Notes under the pieces: model-generated
Told to the model about the DNA's origin: nothing
Databases searched by the model: none
The model's input: only the letters and a program-made list of their open reading frames with translations
Position numbers and translations under genes: made by a program
Assembly: GCF_025753855.1 (NCBI RefSeq)
Contig: NZ_JAOWPT010000002.1
Span: 930,001 to 994,000, forward strand
Direction of reading: 5' to 3'
DNA: 64,000 nt
Source of the DNA: Mesorhizobium sp. ZC-5
GTDB lineage: Bacteria > Pseudomonadota > Alphaproteobacteria > Rhizobiales > Rhizobiaceae
In this document: in pieces, positions 20,576 through 44,778 of the stretch
How the letters are laid out: every line of letters starts with the position of its first letter
How positions within the stretch are numbered: the stretch's first letter is position 1

Positions 20576-20601
20576 CCCTCTCCCCGTGAACGGGGAGAGG
20601 G
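20576..20601. repeat. GC-rich palindrome of the CTCCCC family
   Basis: Perfect 11-bp arms CCCTCTCCCCG and CGGGGAGAGGG around a TGAA loop, between two leftward genes. It could act as a weak terminator or mRNA stabiliser for ghrA; there is no T-run. Confidence 0.7.
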
Positions 20602-20641
20602 GGCGTCAGCGTAGCATCAAGTTCCTGCCAGGGCGGAAGCG

Positions 20642-23230: not shown

Positions 23231-24387
23231 TTGAACGTCTTCCGCGGATCGAAGGCGTCGCGGGTCGCCTCGCCGATGAAGATCAGCAGCGACAGCATGA
23301 TCGACAGCGTGAAGAAGCCGGTCATGGCGAGCCATGGCGCGTTGAGGTTGCGCTGGCCCTGCTTCAGGAGTTCGCCGAGCGAGGCGGAACCGGGCGGAAG
23401 GCCGAAACCGAGGAAATCCAGCGCCGTCAGCGTCGAGATCGAGCCGTTGAGGATAAACGGCAGGAAGGTGAGCGTCGCCACCATGGCGTTGGGCAGCAGA
23501 TGGCGCAGCATGATGGTGCGGTTGGGCACGCCCAGCGCACGGGCGGCGTTGACGTACTCGAAGTTGCGGGCGCGCAGGAATTCGGCCCGCACGACGCCGA
23601 CAAGCGCCACCCAGGAGAAGGCCAGCATGATGCCGAGCAGGATGAAGAAACCGGGCGGCAGCACGGCCGAAATAATGAGGATCAGGTAGAGCACGGGGAT
23701 CGCCGACCAGATCTCGATGAAGCGCTGGAAGAGAAGGTCGGTCCAGCCGCCGAAATAGCCTTGCACGGCGCCGGCGGCGACGCCGATGACCGTCGAGGCG
23801 AGCGTCAGGATCAGCCCGAACAGCACCGAGATGCGGAAACCGTAGATGACGCGGGCGAGCACGTCGCGCGCCTGGTCGTCGGTGCCGAGCCAGTTCCAGT
23901 TGCCGACGACGCAGTTGGGATCGTCGGCGCCCTGCGGATAACGCTCGCAACGCTTCGCCCTGTCGTAGAGCCAGGAGGGTTTTGCGGGCGCGGCGTCGGG
24001 AATCTCGTTGTTGGTGGTGCGGTAGGAATAGCGTATCGGCGGCCAGATCATCCATCCGTTTGCGGCGATCGCATCCTGGATGATCGGCATGCGGTAGTCG
24101 GCGACCGGCAGGAAGCCTTCGTCGCCCAGGAAGGTCGCCTCGTCATAGTCGGTGACGATGGGCGAATAGAAATTGCCGTTGAAGCGGATCAGCAGCGGCT
24201 TGTCGTTGGCGACGAGTTCGGAGCCGAGCGACAGGACGAACAGGACAAGGAATATCCACAGGGACCAGTAGCCGCGCCGGTTCGCCTTGAAATTCTGCCA
24301 CCGCCGCTGGTTGATCGGCGACAGCCACGGCCGCGCTGCTGTGTTGCGCGCCGCTTCGACTTCCGAGGCCGTCTGCATGTCGGGCAT
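23227..24387 (-). CDS. yejE: Peptide ABC transporter permease YejE
   Basis: 386 residues. An N-terminal cytoplasmic stretch and first helix (WSLWIFLVLFVLSLGSELV) are followed by a periplasmic insert and the binding-protein-dependent transport domain with about five helices and the EAA loop (NAARALGVPNRTIMLRHLLPN). It is of the DppC/OppC type. Its start abuts the yejB stop (TGATG) and its stop overlaps yejF. Confidence 0.95.
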   Translation of the reverse strand: MPDMQTASEVEAARNTAARPWLSPINQRRWQNFKANRRGYWSLWIFLVLFVLSLGSELVANDKPLLIRFNGNFYSPIVTDYDEATFLGDEGFLPVADYRMPIIQDAIAANGWMIWPPIRYSYRTTNNEIPDAAPAKPSWLYDRAKRCERYPQGADDPNCVVGNWNWLGTDDQARDVLARVIYGFRISVLFGLILTLASTVIGVAAGAVQGYFGGWTDLLFQRFIEIWSAIPVLYLILIISAVLPPGFFILLGIMLAFSWVALVGVVRAEFLRARNFEYVNAARALGVPNRTIMLRHLLPNAMVATLTFLPFILNGSISTLTALDFLGFGLPPGSASLGELLKQGQRNLNAPWLAMTGFFTLSIMLSLLIFIGEATRDAFDPRKTFK

Positions 24388-25481
24388 CAGACGTCTCTCC
24401 GCTCGAAATCGATGCGCGGATCGATCCAGGTATAGATGAGGTCGGAGATCAGGCTGACGATCAACCCCATCAGGGAGAAGATGAAGAGTGTGGCAAATAC
24501 AACCGGATAGTCGCGATCGAGGATAGACTTGTAGCCGAGGAGGCCCAGTCCATCGAGAGAGAAGATGTTCTCGATCAGCAGCGAGCCGGTGAAGAACGCG
24601 GAGATGAAGGCGGCCGGGAAGCCGGCGATGACGATCAGCATGGCGTTGCGGAAGACGTGGCCGTAGAGCACGCGCCGTTCCGACAGGCCTTTCGCACGCG
24701 CCGTCACCACATACTGTTTGCGGATCTCGTCGAGAAACGAATTCTTGGTGAGCAGGGTGGTGGTGGCGAAGGCTGACAGCACCATGGCCGTCAGCGGCAA
24801 TGCCAGGTGCCAGAAATAGTCGATGATCTTCTCATACCAGGAAAGCTGGCTGAAGTTCTCCGAGACGAGGCCGCGCAACGGGAACCAGTCGTAGAAGGAG
24901 CCGCCGGCGAACAGCACCATCAGCATGATGGCGAACAGGAAGCCGGGGATGGCGTAGCCGACGATGACGACACCGCTGGTCCAGACGTCGAAGGATGAGC
25001 CGTCCCGTACCGCCTTGCGGATGCCGAGCGGAATCGAGATCAGGTAGGAAAGCAGCGTGATCCAGAGACCGATCGAGATGGAGACTGGCATCTTTTCTAT
25101 GATCAGGTCGAGCACCGAGATCTTGCGGAAGAAGCTCTCGCCGAAGTCGAAGCGCACATAATCCCAGAGCATGCCGAAAAAGCGCTGCAGCGGCGGCTTG
25201 TCGAAGCCGAACTGCTTTTCGAGCTTGGCGATGAATTCCGGGTCCAGGCCCTGCGCGCCGCGGTACCTGGACGAAGCGCCGCCACCTGCATCGAAGTTGG
25301 CGGCCACATCGCTACCACCGCCTGAAAGCACATCCCCGCCGCCACCTGGATTTTGCAGCCTGGAGATGATCTGCTCCACCGGACCGCCCGGAGCGAATTG
25401 GATCACCGCGAAGGACACCGCCATGATGCCGAACAGCGTCGGGATCATCAAAAGGATGCGGCGGAGGATATAGGCGCCCAT
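24387..25481 (-). CDS. yejB: Peptide ABC transporter permease YejB
   Basis: About 364 residues from the ATG at 25481, which follows GGGAGAG; the frame upstream is non-coding repeat sequence. The first helix is [20 protein letters not shown], with the DppB-like segment [10 protein letters not shown], a Gly-rich periplasmic insert (about 47-75), and the transport domain with five more helices and EAA loop [22 protein letters not shown]. It pairs with YejE. Confidence 0.95.
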
Positions 25482-25486
25482 CAGAC

Positions 25487-25617
25487 TCTCCCTTCTCCCC
25501 GTGAACGGGAAGAAGGTGCCCGAAGGGGGGATGAGGGGCAGCATTCAACCCGGGCCAGTTCGCGCTGCCCCTCACCTACCTGCCGGCATCCTCTCACCGC
25601 GAGCCGGGAGAGGAAAG
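25487..25617. repeat. GC-rich inverted repeat between the yejA and yejB genes
   Basis: Two nested structures: CTTCTCCCCGT...ACGGGAAGAAGG near 25492-25516 and a perfect 11-bp pair TGAGGGGCAGC (532-542) with GCTGCCCCTCA (564-574), followed by another CTCTC...GAGAGG arm. It is in the middle of an operon and could set message stability between the binding proteins and the permeases. Confidence 0.65.
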
Positions 25618-40619: not shown

Positions 40620-41525
40620 ATGCAGACCTTGCCTTCGGGATTGCCGCCATTGCAGACGCTGCGCGCCTTCACGGCTGTCGCGCGCCTGAAAAGTTTCACG
40701 ATGGCCGCCGACGACCTGGCTGTCACCCAAACGGCGGTCAGCCATCAGATCGCGCAGCTCGAGGACTGGATCGGCGGACGGCTGTTCGTACGCGACCGGC
40801 GTGGCGTTGAACTGACGCCGCTCGGGCAGGGGCTTCTTCCGGATGTTGTGGGGGCTCTTGAAAACCTGGAACAGGCACTGGGCCGCGCGCGCCGGTCGCT
40901 GGGCAGTCCGAAGCTCCGTATCTCGACGTCTCCGGAGTTTGCGACGCAGTGGCTGACGCCACGACTGACCGGCTTTTGCGATGCGCATCCGGAGGTTGAT
41001 GTCAGCGTGACGGTGCAGTATCGGCGCGCCCTTGTCGTCAACGACGATATCGACGTTGCCATATGGCTGTCGGGCGGAATGCTGGAACGGGGCGCCGAGC
41101 GACTGACGGCGGACGAGGAGTTCGCTGTCTGCGCGCCGGAACTTGCGCGCGAGCTGCCGCGCAGGGAAGGGATGCGAACGGCACCGCTGCTGCGCTATGA
41201 GGGTGCCCGCTATACGGTGCTCGACTGGCGCCGCTGGCATGGCCAGATCTACGGTGACAGCGACAAGCACGATTTCGATGGCGGTCCCTCATACCGTACG
41301 TTCCCGGAAATGCTGGATGCCTGCCGTAGCGGTGCCGGCTTCGCTCTTGTGCGAAGCTCGCTGGTCACGGACGACCTGGCGGCCGGCCGGCTGGTGAGAT
41401 GCTTCACGGAGAGCGTCGTTTCCGATTTGCAATATCAACTGGTCATCATGCCAAGCCGCCGGGAGGAGGCACAGATTCGCGCATTCAGGCATTGGATACT
41501 CGAACAGGCGAAGCCTGCCGCCTGA
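40620..41525 (+). CDS. LysR-family transcriptional regulator (GcvA-like)
   Basis: 301 residues: a winged helix at about 10-68 (LQTLRAFTAVARLKSFTMAA; TQTAVSHQIAQLEDWIGGRL) and a periplasmic-binding-like effector domain from about 95. The LPPLQTLRAF start and substitution pattern are like the GcvA group. AGGAAA precedes the ATG. No divergent partner gene lies directly upstream (291 bases without a gene), so the target is unclear. Confidence 0.9.
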   Translation: MQTLPSGLPPLQTLRAFTAVARLKSFTMAADDLAVTQTAVSHQIAQLEDWIGGRLFVRDRRGVELTPLGQGLLPDVVGALENLEQALGRARRSLGSPKLRISTSPEFATQWLTPRLTGFCDAHPEVDVSVTVQYRRALVVNDDIDVAIWLSGGMLERGAERLTADEEFAVCAPELARELPRREGMRTAPLLRYEGARYTVLDWRRWHGQIYGDSDKHDFDGGPSYRTFPEMLDACRSGAGFALVRSSLVTDDLAAGRLVRCFTESVVSDLQYQLVIMPSRREEAQIRAFRHWILEQAKPAA

Positions 41526-41579
41526 ATGCACGAGCGGCGGGCAATTCCCTTCGTGCCGGAAAAATCATAAACCGGACCG

Positions 41580-42185
41580 ATGTCGAAGCGAGTCGCCGGT
41601 CCCGAAATCGAACGTCTGATCCAGCTGCTGGCCAAGGTGCCGGGGCTCGGGCCGCGCTCGGCGCGGCGCGCAGCATTGCACATGATCAAGAAGAAGGACC
41701 AACTCATGGTGCCGCTCGCCGGCGCCATGGCCGAGGCGGTGGACAAGGTGCGGGTGTGCTCAACCTGCGGCAATGTCGATACGATCGACCCTTGCACCAT
41801 CTGCACCGATCCGCGTCGCGACAGCACTATCCTGATCGTCGTCGAGGACGTTTCCGACCTGTGGGCGCTGGAACGCGCAGGCACCATGAATGTCCGGTAT
41901 CATGTGCTCGGCGGCACGCTGTCGCCGCTCGACGGGATCGGTCCCGACCAGCTCAACATCAAGCAACTGGTGGCGCGGGCCGCCGAGGGCGATGTCGCGG
42001 AAGTGATCCTCGCCGTCAATGCCACCGTCGAGGGCCAGACCACGGCGCATTACCTGACAGACCAGCTGGAAGGTTTCGAGATCAAGGTGACGCGACTGGC
42101 GCATGGCGTGCCTGTGGGTGGCGAACTGGATTACCTCGACGAAGGAACCTTGGCGGCAGCGCTGCGGTCGCGGACGGCGTTTTGA
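41580..42185 (+). CDS. recR: Recombination protein RecR
   Basis: 201 residues: helix-hairpin-helix [18 protein letters not shown], a four-cysteine zinc finger (CSTCGN and CTIC), the Toprim core ([18 protein letters not shown] with its Glu and Asp) and the C-terminal [17 protein letters not shown]. It loads RecA with RecF/RecO during gap repair. It is separated from dnaX-ybaB, the usual neighbours, by 3.7 kb of inserted or rearranged genes. Confidence 0.96.
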
Positions 42186-42211
42186 CGTATTTCATGGGCA
42201 AAGAGGCCTTC

Positions 42212-43615
42212 ATGAACAGCACTCTACGGCGCCCCCCTCTGTCCTGCCGGACATCTCCCCCACAAGGGGGGAGATTGGCAGCTTCGGCGTTGCCGCCCTT
42301 TCTGCGATCTTGGCGATTGGCGAAAGCGAAATTTCGAGCCAGTCTCCCCCCTTGTGGGGGAGATGTCCGGCAGGACAGAGGGGGGCAACGTGGGGTACTG
42401 CCGCTGATCATGCTCGCGTGCCTGTCGCTGGTTTTCGCCTATCCCGCCTCGGCAGCAAAAATCGACGACCAGTTCCGCGCCTGGCTTGCCAACGATTTGT
42501 GGCCGGAGGCGAAGACCAAGGGAATTTCCAAGGCCACGTTCGACACGGCATTCGCCGGCGTGAAGCCCAATTTGAAACTGCCGGACCTGGTGATGCCGGG
42601 CGCCAAGCCGACGACGCCGAAGAAGCAGCATCAGGCGGAGTTCGGTTCGCCCGGCAGTTATTTCGGCAAGATCGGCGGCGTCACCGGCGGCGGCAGGGCA
42701 CGGGCGGGGCAGAATGCGAGGACACTCGCGGCGATCGAGAAAAGATACGGCGTACCGGGCAGCGTGGTGCTGGCGATCTGGGGTCGCGAATCCGGCTTCG
42801 GCGCCGCGAAGATCCCCTACGACGCATTCGAGGTGCTCGGCACCAAGGCGTTTCTCGCCACGCGCAAGGACATGTTCCGGACCGAGGTGTTGGCTGCACT
42901 GGAGATGGTGGAACGCGGGCTGGCGAGCCCCAAGGCGATGAAGTCGTCATGGGCGGGTGCGCTTGGCCAGCCGCAGTTCTTGCCGACCTCATTCCTGAAA
43001 CACGCCGTCGATTTCGACGGAGACGGCCGCGCCGACATCTGGAACTCCACACCCGACACACTGGCCTCGATCGCCAATTATCTGGTCGACTATGGCTGGG
43101 TGAAAGGCCGCGACTGGGGTTTCGAGGTGGCGGTGCCGGAGAACGTTTCCTGTGCGCTGGAAGGTCCGGACCAGGGCAAGCGGATCTCGGAATGGGCGGC
43201 GATGGGCATCTCGCGCGTCAACGGCAAGCCGTTTCCGGCCAACGAGGCACGCGCCGAGGGGTTCCTGCTGATGCCGGCCGGACGCAGCGGTCCCGCCTTC
43301 ATCGTGACGCCGAATTTCTACGTGCTGAAGGAGTACAACGAGAGCGATCTCTACGCGCTGTTCATCGGCCACGGCGCCGACCGTATTGCGCATGGCGACA
43401 GGAATTTTGCCGGCTCGTGGGGCAAGGTCGGCGGGCTTTACCGGTCGGATGTCGCGGCCCTGCAACGGGGGCTGGAAAAGCTCGGCTACGATGTCGGCGG
43501 CGCCGACGGTCTGCCCGGCTTCAAGACCCGCCGCTCGATCGGCGCATGGCAGGCGAAGAACGGTAAGGCGGCGACGTGTTTTCCGGACAAGGGTTTGGTG
43601 GAGGCGGTGCGGTAG
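42212..43615 (+). CDS. Lytic murein transglycosylase (MltB type) with in-frame repeat insertion
   Basis: 467 residues. The SLT_2 domain (about 90-385) has the catalytic Glu193 in IWGRESGFG and ALGQPQFLPTSF; a peptidoglycan-binding domain follows (about 400-460; VAALQRGLEKLGYDVGGADG). The N-terminus is unusual: MNSTLR, then about 52 residues encoded by a palindromic repeat (42231-42386), then a signal core VLPLIMLACLSLVFAYPASA. Removing the 156 bp rejoins MNSTLRQRGVLPLIM in frame. The ATG at 42212 follows AGAGG. It cuts the MurNAc-GlcNAc bond in the periplasm. Confidence 0.92.
   Translation: MNSTLRRPPLSCRTSPPQGGRLAASALPPFLRSWRLAKAKFRASLPPCGGDVRQDRGGQRGVLPLIMLACLSLVFAYPASAAKIDDQFRAWLANDLWPEAKTKGISKATFDTAFAGVKPNLKLPDLVMPGAKPTTPKKQHQAEFGSPGSYFGKIGGVTGGGRARAGQNARTLAAIEKRYGVPGSVVLAIWGRESGFGAAKIPYDAFEVLGTKAFLATRKDMFRTEVLAALEMVERGLASPKAMKSSWAGALGQPQFLPTSFLKHAVDFDGDGRADIWNSTPDTLASIANYLVDYGWVKGRDWGFEVAVPENVSCALEGPDQGKRISEWAAMGISRVNGKPFPANEARAEGFLLMPAGRSGPAFIVTPNFYVLKEYNESDLYALFIGHGADRIAHGDRNFAGSWGKVGGLYRSDVAALQRGLEKLGYDVGGADGLPGFKTRRSIGAWQAKNGKAATCFPDKGLVEAVR
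42231..42386. repeat. 156-bp palindromic repeat inserted in a coding sequence
   Basis: Perfect 44-bp inverted arms (42231-42274 and 42343-42386) around a 68-bp centre. The arms contain GTCCTGCCGGACATCTCCCC and its complement. The element is 52 codons long and the reading frame stays open through it on the plus strand. Its CTCCCC core relates it to the other repeats in the window, which are intergenic. Confidence 0.95.
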
Positions 43616-43620
43616 CTTTT

Positions 43621-43782
43621 GCCTCTCCCCTTGTGGGAGAGGTCGGATTGCCCGAACTTGCGAAGCAAGTCGATGGCAATCCGGGTGAGGGGTATCTGCG
43701 GCAAACCCCTCATCCGTCTTGGCGCTGCGCGCCAATCCACCTTCTCCCACAAGGGGAGAAGGGAAGAGGCGGCGCCTCAAGC
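43621..43782. repeat. Large imperfect inverted repeat after the transglycosylase gene
   Basis: The left arm (from 43621, GCCTCTCCCCTTGTGGGAGA) and right arm (ending near 43773-43776, TCTCCCACAAGGGGAGA) pair imperfectly. The centre holds two smaller palindromes (AACTTGCGAAGCAAGT and TTGGCGCTGCGCGCCAA) and a GTGAGGGGT / AACCCCTCAT pair. It lies between converging genes. Confidence 0.8.
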
Positions 43783-44778
43783 CGCCTTGGCCAACTCCCG
43801 ATGCACATCGGCGAGAATTTCGAACGAGCGAACCCGGGCCGCGTGGTCGTGTATCTGCGCGGTGACCATCAGCTCGTCGGCGCCGGTGCGGCGGATGAAG
43901 GCGTCGAGGCCGCTGCGCACGGTTTCCGGCGAGCCGATGATGGCGCAGGAGAGAGCGTACTCGAGCATGACCTTGGCGGCGGTATCAATCTGCGTGTCAT
44001 AACCTTCCACCGGCGGCGGCAGCTTGCCGGGGCGCCCGGTGCGCAGGTTGACGAAGGCCTGTTGCAGCGACGTGAACAGCAGCTTCGCCTCGGCGTCCGT
44101 CGCGGCGGCGAAGACGTTGAGGCCGAGCATCAGGTAAGGCTTGTCGAGATGTTCAGACGGCTGGAAACGCGAGCGGTAGATGTCGATCGCGTGCTCCAGT
44201 TCGGCCGGCGCGAAATGCGAGGCGAAGGCATAGGGCAGGCCGAGAATGGCGGCGAGCTGGGCGCCGTAGGTCGACGAGCCGAGTATCCAGACCGGCACGT
44301 TCTGGCCCTCGCCAGGAACGGCGCGCAGCCGCTGGCCGGGTTCGGCCGGGCGGAAATAGTCGATCAGTTCGACGACATCCTGCGGGAAGCTGTCGACGCC
44401 GGCGTCCATGTTGCGGCGAAGAGCGCGCGCCGTGCCCATGTCCGTACCGGGTGCGCGGCCGAGGCCGAGGTCGATGCGGCCGGGATGGAGGGCGTTGAGC
44501 GTACCGAACTGCTCGGCGATCACCAACGGCGCATGATTGGGCAGCATGATGCCGCCGGCGCCGACGCGGATGGTCGAGGTGCCGCCAGCGACATGCCCGA
44601 TGACAACGGAGGTGGCCGCACTTGCGATGCCGGGCATATTGTGGTGTTCGGCGAGCCAGTAGCGCTTGTAGCCGAGACGCTCGGCATGACGGGCGAGGTC
44701 GAGCGTGTTCTTCAGTGATTGGCTGACATCGCTGCCTTCGCCGACCGGTGACAGATCGAGAACGGAAAGGGGGATCAT
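43777..44778 (-). CDS. LLM-class flavin-dependent oxidoreductase (first)
   Basis: 333 residues of the bacterial-luciferase-like superfamily (MsnO8-type). Typical segments are [41 protein letters not shown] and [15 protein letters not shown]. These enzymes use reduced FMN and oxygen; substrate unknown. The ATG at 44778 overlaps the arylamine N-acetyltransferase stop by 4 bases with AGGA upstream, so the two are coupled. The open frame upstream is a shadow of the NAT gene. Confidence 0.92.

Follow-up and report, generated by a model that had tools for sequence, protein, structure and literature searches.

A palindromic repeat lies in frame in the signal peptide region of a rhizobial lytic transglycosylase, a probable recurrent landing site of its family

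Rickettsia palindromic elements (RPEs) are dispersed repeats that lie in frame in protein genes, as described in sections of PMC10969869 and PMC3733652, and protein-coding palindromes of Wolbachia are reported by a title in the reference list of PMC2229807. According to the relevant part of PMC3733652, the REP-type elements of other families lie for the most part directly downstream of genes; it also describes intragenic REPs in several species, including some in tRNA synthetases, and a recB gene in which two Xanthomonas species carry a REP at approximately one and the same position. Rhizobium-specific intergenic mosaic elements (RIMEs) are dispersed, repeated and intergenic in the account given in PMC2573895, while a portion of PMC2229807 reports that Yersinia palindromic sequence (RU-2) forms part of a predicted signal peptide in YPO1552. 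In the open-licence literature no in-frame palindromes were found in Mesorhizobium or in a lytic transglycosylase (LT) gene, and neither a rhizobial case nor the occupation of one signal peptide in several frames, orientations and families was found there. Di Nocera and colleagues reportedly argued that many N-terminal REPs in three species are non-coding, and in the same open-licence literature no comparative evidence was found for truly coding N-terminal copies.

The window, by which is meant the whole 64,000-nt stretch of DNA that was analysed, comes from Mesorhizobium sp. ZC-5 (contig NZ_JAOWPT010000002.1, positions 930,001 to 994,000), whose 6.34-Mb genome is termed G000. It contains an LT gene whose product matches PF13406 (SLT_2, E 9.4e-91) and PF01471 (PG_binding_1, E 5.2e-08), and whose 5' end carries a long palindrome. 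The features of the locus are these.

41580..42185, plus strand: the upstream gene, an ORF that we take to be recR and that serves as synteny anchor
42202..42206, plus strand: possible Shine-Dalgarno sequence AGAGG for ATG 42212 (anti-SD -5.8 kcal/mol)
42212..42214, plus strand: likely LT start ATG, judged from the sequence and from upstream ATGs of orthologues, nearly all of which are in frame
42212..43615, plus strand: LT gene, a lytic transglycosylase with SLT_2 and PG_binding_1; 467 codons including the element
42217..42279, plus strand: extended left arm including the variable outer end, 63 nt, 90% complementary
42231..42386, plus strand: palindromic element, 156 nt, in frame
42231..42274, plus strand: left arm, 44 nt
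42338..42400, plus strand: extended right arm including the variable outer end, 63 nt, 90% complementary
42343..42386, plus strand: right arm, exact reverse complement of the left arm
42392..42457, plus strand: hydrophobic core and AxA-type cleavage region of a Sec-type signal peptide, by eye

The element starts 45 nt after the recR stop and 19 nt past the A of ATG 42212. Its arms are complementary at 44 of 44 positions, whereas the longest comparable arm among 20 shuffled windows was 14 bp. Since its length is divisible by three, it adds 52 residues in frame, and the LT frame from ATG 42212 is open across it to the stop at 43615. The description of a 156-bp, stop-free, in-frame element with perfect 44-bp arms given in a preliminary account of this DNA is thus borne out. 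Its view that removing the element restores a normal signal peptide agrees with the look of the flanks joined without it, which read MNSTLRQRGVLPLIMLACLSLVFAYPASAAK, by eye an ordinary-seeming signal peptide. The positive n-region, hydrophobic core and AxA site of that peptide were likewise recognized by eye from the translation. Weaker complementarity widens the arms to the 63-nt extended forms, in agreement with the extended ends of other family members, which reach ∼13 nt past the core. Each arm also folds by itself into small hairpins (-21.7 kcal/mol for one arm and -22.3 for the other), those of the left arm being two and REP-like; as the arms fold alone and are inverted copies, the element appears to be built as a pair of inverted REP units. 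The RNA from 42190 to 42420 has a predicted fold of -165.4 kcal/mol (z -13.5), which may, as the preliminary account proposed, lower translation.

A model of the family recovers only one copy in the window, that in LT. The other palindromes of the window, at 20576-20604, 25491-25519 and 43624-43759, are other REP-like repeats that look intergenic. The earlier statement that related repeats are all intergenic therefore stands for the look of these neighbours; they are different repeats, however, and outside the window the family itself also occurs inside coding genes of the same genome (see below). The palindrome at 43624-43759, just 3' of LT, forms a further inverted pair (27 nt, 89%) and belongs to a different REP-like type. 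That at 25491-25519 is a REP-like hairpin in the first codons of the longest ORF at 24387-25544 (minus strand), and probably lies upstream of the true start of this permease-like gene, function and start being judged by eye. A search of 41500-44500 against Rfam gave three matches below the gathering thresholds (mir-5881, 33.8 of 87; RUF6-5, 26.4 of 70; whalefall-1, 23.3 of 37), which were taken as chance matches to hairpin-rich DNA; the whalefall-1 match is placed at 43619-43692.

The family is abundant in G000, where 66 matches to the element, merged by hand into ∼32 places, include 16 full-length copies, the LT copy among them. A relative, G001, whose LT locus is that of M. albiziae DSM 21822 (L090 and L009, merged), has 84 matches, and G002, of the same genus, has none at E 0.001. 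The outer ends differ between copies, being of GCGCTCTACGTTG, GCGTTCCTTCGCG and GGCGGGACAGCG types. At E 1e-10 the family was found in 50 of 60 further genomes; a full LT copy is present in 17 of these 60, and in none of the ten that lack the family. Among plasmids, 166 records match, mainly from Sinorhizobium (69) and Rhizobium (59), and no listed gene lies beneath 39 of the 40 best places, a count that rests on an incomplete gene table and in which one record is unannotated. A RAYT transposase was considered as the mover and rejected, as PF01797 (Y1-type transposase) had no match in any of five genomes, compared with 5 of 14 control genomes that were positive. Comparison of G000 with G001 showed that 4 of 30 non-LT regions of G000 match, by both flanks, one of 30 G001 loci, several of these being one copy on two strands; with so few shared sites, most sites appear to turn over. 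The loops of three full copies shared by the two genomes are 61, 72 and 85% alike against a background of 60%.

The distribution of the element at LT was followed through the recR-LT orthologues. The survey combined named loci (the best 80 of 321, plus three more) with the 120 best-scoring loci, after G000, G001 and G002, from a search of 395 genomes of the same taxonomic family, 352 of which gave an LT match; merging reduced the 203 loci so gathered to 167 that are distinct. LT is preceded by a recR match in 201 of the 203; L207 and L280, without a usable recR match, were retained without a recR distance. Full copies, defined by a span of more than 120 of the 154 positions of the element model, occupy the LT spot in 35 of the 167 distinct loci, and partial copies in eight, of which five are firm and three weak (L021, E 0.53; L063, E 0.016; L058, E 0.0025), that of L063 being possibly another REP type. 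The remaining 124 loci are without a recognizable element. The expectation that the 52 residues would be absent from most orthologues was thus correct as to the majority, although the insertion is not private to this strain. L032 and L067 have N inside the element and were both counted, the length and phase of L032 being unreliable for this reason. Judged from record titles, the hosts of full copies include Mesorhizobium, Aminobacter, Pseudaminobacter, Aquamicrobium, Aliihoeflea and Aquibium, among others.

Full copies are placed 38-69 nt past the end of recR. The distance from recR to mature LT is mostly 68-178 or 256-317 nt; a few loci fall between these two clusters (198-235 nt) or above them (422-665 nt). 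The LT copies show both loop orientations, weakly supported (<10 bits) in 5 of the 35 full copies, and at least two reading frames. At least 40 of the 44 arm pairs are kept in 30 of the 35 full copies; the arms are worn or incomplete in the other five (L018, L019, L020, L032 and L082). Several partial copies have lost one arm, and all eight run in frame into LT. The LT signal peptide of G002 carries a different palindromic repeat, also in frame (L091:1328-1462), with 82 matches in that genome. As separate observations, several copies of this G002 repeat elsewhere in its genome are closely clustered, L206 has another clear palindrome in frame in its LT signal peptide, and a weaker one was seen by eye in L198.

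Comparison of the orthologues strongly supports the view, already put forward in the preliminary description, that translation passes through the element. Thirty-four of the 35 full copies are open from upstream through into LT. The rate of openness in the corresponding frame among 37 other copies (a set that includes L158, itself in cobN) would predict 21.0, and none of 200,000 simulations reached 34. Of the 40 ATGs in the stretch from recR to the element, 37 share the LT frame (p 7e-15, kinship ignored), and the length class 154+3k holds for 33 of the 35 LT copies versus 18 of the 37 others (Fisher p 1.8e-5). As the LT copies are related these p-values overstate the case; if nine independent placements are assumed (the eight phase changes described below plus one), the probability that all would be in frame is (1/3)^9, or ∼5e-5. 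Neither L180 nor L193 has an ATG, GTG or TTG from the element start to the mature protein. It could be argued that the element is instead a 5' leader, LT translation beginning inside or after it and the upstream open frame being incidental. Starts within or downstream of the element are indeed present in many loci: some Mesorhizobium loci have a good alternative start directly after the element (GTG-AAG-GAA-CGC), and most phase-2 copies have an ATG within the right arm. In the window the anti-SD score of ATG 42212 (-5.8 kcal/mol) is at least matched by those of the downstream ATG 42410 (-6.1) and of an in-element TTG (-9.7). Median anti-SD values are -8.4 upstream (34 loci), -6.1 within the element (31) and -3.9 downstream (21), and the upstream start has the best value in only 20 of the 35 loci, the window not being among these. 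L016, which has a full copy, a stop in the loop and upstream ATG and GTG codons only out of frame, counts against read-through and fits a leader; its LT may start at a GTG after the element. An in-frame upstream ATG is absent from 5 of the 35 loci, namely L016, L032, L065, L067 and L223, of which L065 and L067 have an in-frame upstream GTG, and L223 and L032 an in-frame upstream TTG. Part of PMC3733652, moreover, argues that many N-terminal REPs of P. putida, C. koseri and S. maltophilia are non-coding. A leader is nevertheless difficult to reconcile with the frame of the upstream ATGs, the preferred length class and the excess of open copies, with the two loci that offer no usual start within the element or beyond it, and with the partial copies, which remain in frame. 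In the window, initiation at the downstream ATG would give a signal peptide of ∼15 residues that, by eye, has no positive n-region. We therefore give the leader little credence. As the stop-free frame continues upstream over recR, and a second in-frame ATG lies at 42194, the LT start in this strain is something we infer, and ATG 42212 is the likely start codon.

Whether the copies at LT represent one arrival or several was assessed with a quickly made tree of mature LT proteins, in which 51 of 164 inner branches are open. Over the 167 tips the full state requires no fewer than 25 changes (mean of the shuffles 32.2, with none of 300 shuffles as low), while among the 35 full loci phase requires 8 changes (shuffles 12.9) and orientation 7 (shuffles 11.6). 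These counts indicate that copies are partly inherited and partly turned over. L193 and L220, sisters on this tree (branch support 100), have copies that differ in phase as well as in orientation. Over the first 30 nt of the core, LT copies have a median likeness of 93% across 595 pairs (minimum 47%), compared with 58% at the four-fold sites of their LT genes and 61% in the loops, indicating that the arms are either recent or held alike by conversion. These features bear on the view that a single ancient in-frame insertion was lost in most lineages, differences in orientation and frame having arisen through loop inversion and paired small indels. Consistent with such a history, clustering on the tree exceeds that in almost all of the 300 shuffles for the full state, for phase and for orientation, partial copies persist in eight loci, and 14 of the 124 seemingly empty loci have exact matches of at least 12 nt to the ends or flanks of LT copies (shuffles, 0.7 per set), although two of the 14 (L041 and L048) match a flank type and not an element end. 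By eye, 16 nt of flank extend the inverted repeat exactly in L080, and 17 of 18 nt do so in L010; these extensions point to template switching at the hairpin, by which arms could be rewritten in place. The LT loops of G000 and G001, 67% alike compared with the 60% background, are compatible with either shared descent or separate insertion. Against a single ancient insertion, the cores are too similar for old copies unless homogenized, the changes in phase and orientation all have to be accommodated, and a different family occupies the same spot in G002; we consider this history unlikely, though the strongest of the alternatives. Finally, the hairpin might be kept as a regulator of LT, as a stable stem after the start codon or as a processing or attenuation site that parts recR from LT. 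The predicted stability of the fold, the high pairing of the arms in most full LT copies and recurrence at the same place are what such a function would lead one to expect. The lack of a recognizable element in 124 of 167 loci, the differences between close relatives, the worn or incomplete arms in 5 of 35 full copies and the loss of an arm in several partial copies are not, and a regulatory role is in our view very unlikely.

The preliminary description had proposed a genome search for arm copies inside coding frames, and such copies were found in three further genes of G000: cobN (a single arm), glyS (two arms) and PDH-E2 (two arms, located between the lipoyl and E3-binding domains). In the cobN-like gene, G000 has one arm (L135, C10:62470-64923) and G001 a full in-frame copy at the same place (L158), the frame of which was read directly. 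A codon-usage scan meant to detect copies within genes, home-made and noisy (off-frame 95th percentile 5.5, true-frame median 9.3), served only as a source of candidates, three of which were then checked by Pfam. cobN, glyS and PDH-E2 were each searched in 30 genomes, with matches in 28, 28 and 26, respectively. Eighty-eight loci were entered and hits were scored where the flanks aligned on both sides. All 27 sites scored, which lie in 21 loci (24 sites without same-genome duplicates), are in frame. L358, L385 and L386 are duplicates from a genome that had been counted before, and L352 matches another REP type weakly. Unscored hits, among them L329, L330, L334, L335, L338, L341, L359, L368 and L379, are left out of this count, and the statement that no gene is disrupted thus holds for the scored sites only. 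The glyS genes in L138, L360, L362, L363, L378, L382 and L383 have one to three in-frame sites, two of them having three; depending on the genome, the listed glyS open frames are 766 to 940 aa long. By eye, GlyS of G000 has an apparent second, different repeat-like insert near residues 37-71. In-frame copies in PDH-E2 or an E2 paralogue occur in L139, L301, L316, L325 and L328. The glyS product is the beta subunit of glycyl-tRNA synthetase, and CobN, GlyS and PDH-E2 are not exported; as they nonetheless carry in-frame copies, removal of the signal peptide is not needed for tolerance. The earlier suggestion that the extra residues in LT are tolerated since they are removed after export consequently fails as the whole reason.

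We consider it probable, on the evidence of the sequences, that the element is a non-autonomous, REP/RIME-like repeat of the Rhizobiaceae that has landed repeatedly in LT, in-frame arrivals being kept and translated. What the sequences show directly is the insertion, its occurrence across many species, the upkeep of its frame, its remnants and the further in-frame sites. On this explanation one copy of the repeat would have inserted immediately 3' of recR, 19 nt into the LT coding region. Ribosomes that initiate upstream would translate the element, giving a signal peptide with an n-region ∼52 residues longer, and the exported, mature enzyme would be unchanged once signal peptidase cleaves. 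The LT spot would represent a recurrent landing site that has received several arrivals, in either orientation and in different frames. Arrivals out of frame would have been lost because LT is needed, while those in frame would lengthen an unconserved n-region and persist until deletion shortens them, deletions between the arms giving short in-frame remnants. As the gap between recR and LT is so short, a repeat that tends to land 3' of a gene, as this one may do at recR, would fall on the first LT codons. It is also possible, and we hold this wider view tentatively, that the LT signal peptide is a landing pad shared across the Rhizobiaceae by different palindrome families, which survive there only in frame. 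This would go together with a general and active process like that of the RPEs, affecting LT, CobN, GlyS (at up to three sites) and PDH-E2, with template switching that keeps the arms alike and with in-frame remnants that become ordinary protein.

In-frame palindromes are known above all from Rickettsia, and intragenic REPs are known as well; the rhizobial case shows a comparable process in bacteria that live free in soil or in root nodules. One locus is met here in filled, partly deleted and empty form, which makes the conversion of a repeat into protein testable in culturable strains. The rate at which the element is lost without harm can be tested, as can the idea that signal peptides and linkers are entry gates for repeats. 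There is also a practical aspect, as gene callers that set starts after such elements, or split genes at them, may be wrong.

How the family compares with the described systems depends on the feature considered. The two inverted REP-like hairpins of the element are an arrangement found in REPINs, and the family resembles intragenic REPs and REP dimers of the GTAG and CGTC families in having inverted REP-like units that are mostly intergenic, with some within genes. Unlike those families, its 44-nt arm contains neither GTAG nor CGTC; many copies do have the letters GTAG in their outer ends (CAACGTAGAGC), as a plain string match. The family also differs from RAYT-mobilized REPs in that the five genomes searched gave no PF01797 transposase. 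N-terminal copies are mostly non-coding in three species according to the relevant part of PMC3733652, whereas those in rhizobial LT look coding. As with RIMEs, compared here by description, this is a rhizobial, dispersed and mainly intergenic repeat, although it also lies inside genes whereas RIMEs are described as intergenic. The parallel with YPO1552 is that there, too, part of a predicted signal peptide is encoded in frame by a mobile palindromic repeat; that case, however, is one fusion locus thought to have produced a new exported protein, while LT is an established enzyme with copies in many species. The family further resembles the palindromic elements of Rickettsia, which are likewise dispersed, ∼150 bp long and in frame in unrelated conserved genes, here LT, cobN, glyS and PDH-E2, and, going by the title cited above, the protein-coding palindromes of Wolbachia. 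The family departs from RPEs in that its hosts have genomes of 4-7 Mb, and in that one signal-peptide site is filled across many species, frames and orientations and, in G002, by another family. The resemblance to RPEs that the preliminary description had noted is thus strengthened by the several unrelated genes with in-frame copies, and by analogy the element appears to work as RPEs do, a likeness in mode of working rather than membership of that group.
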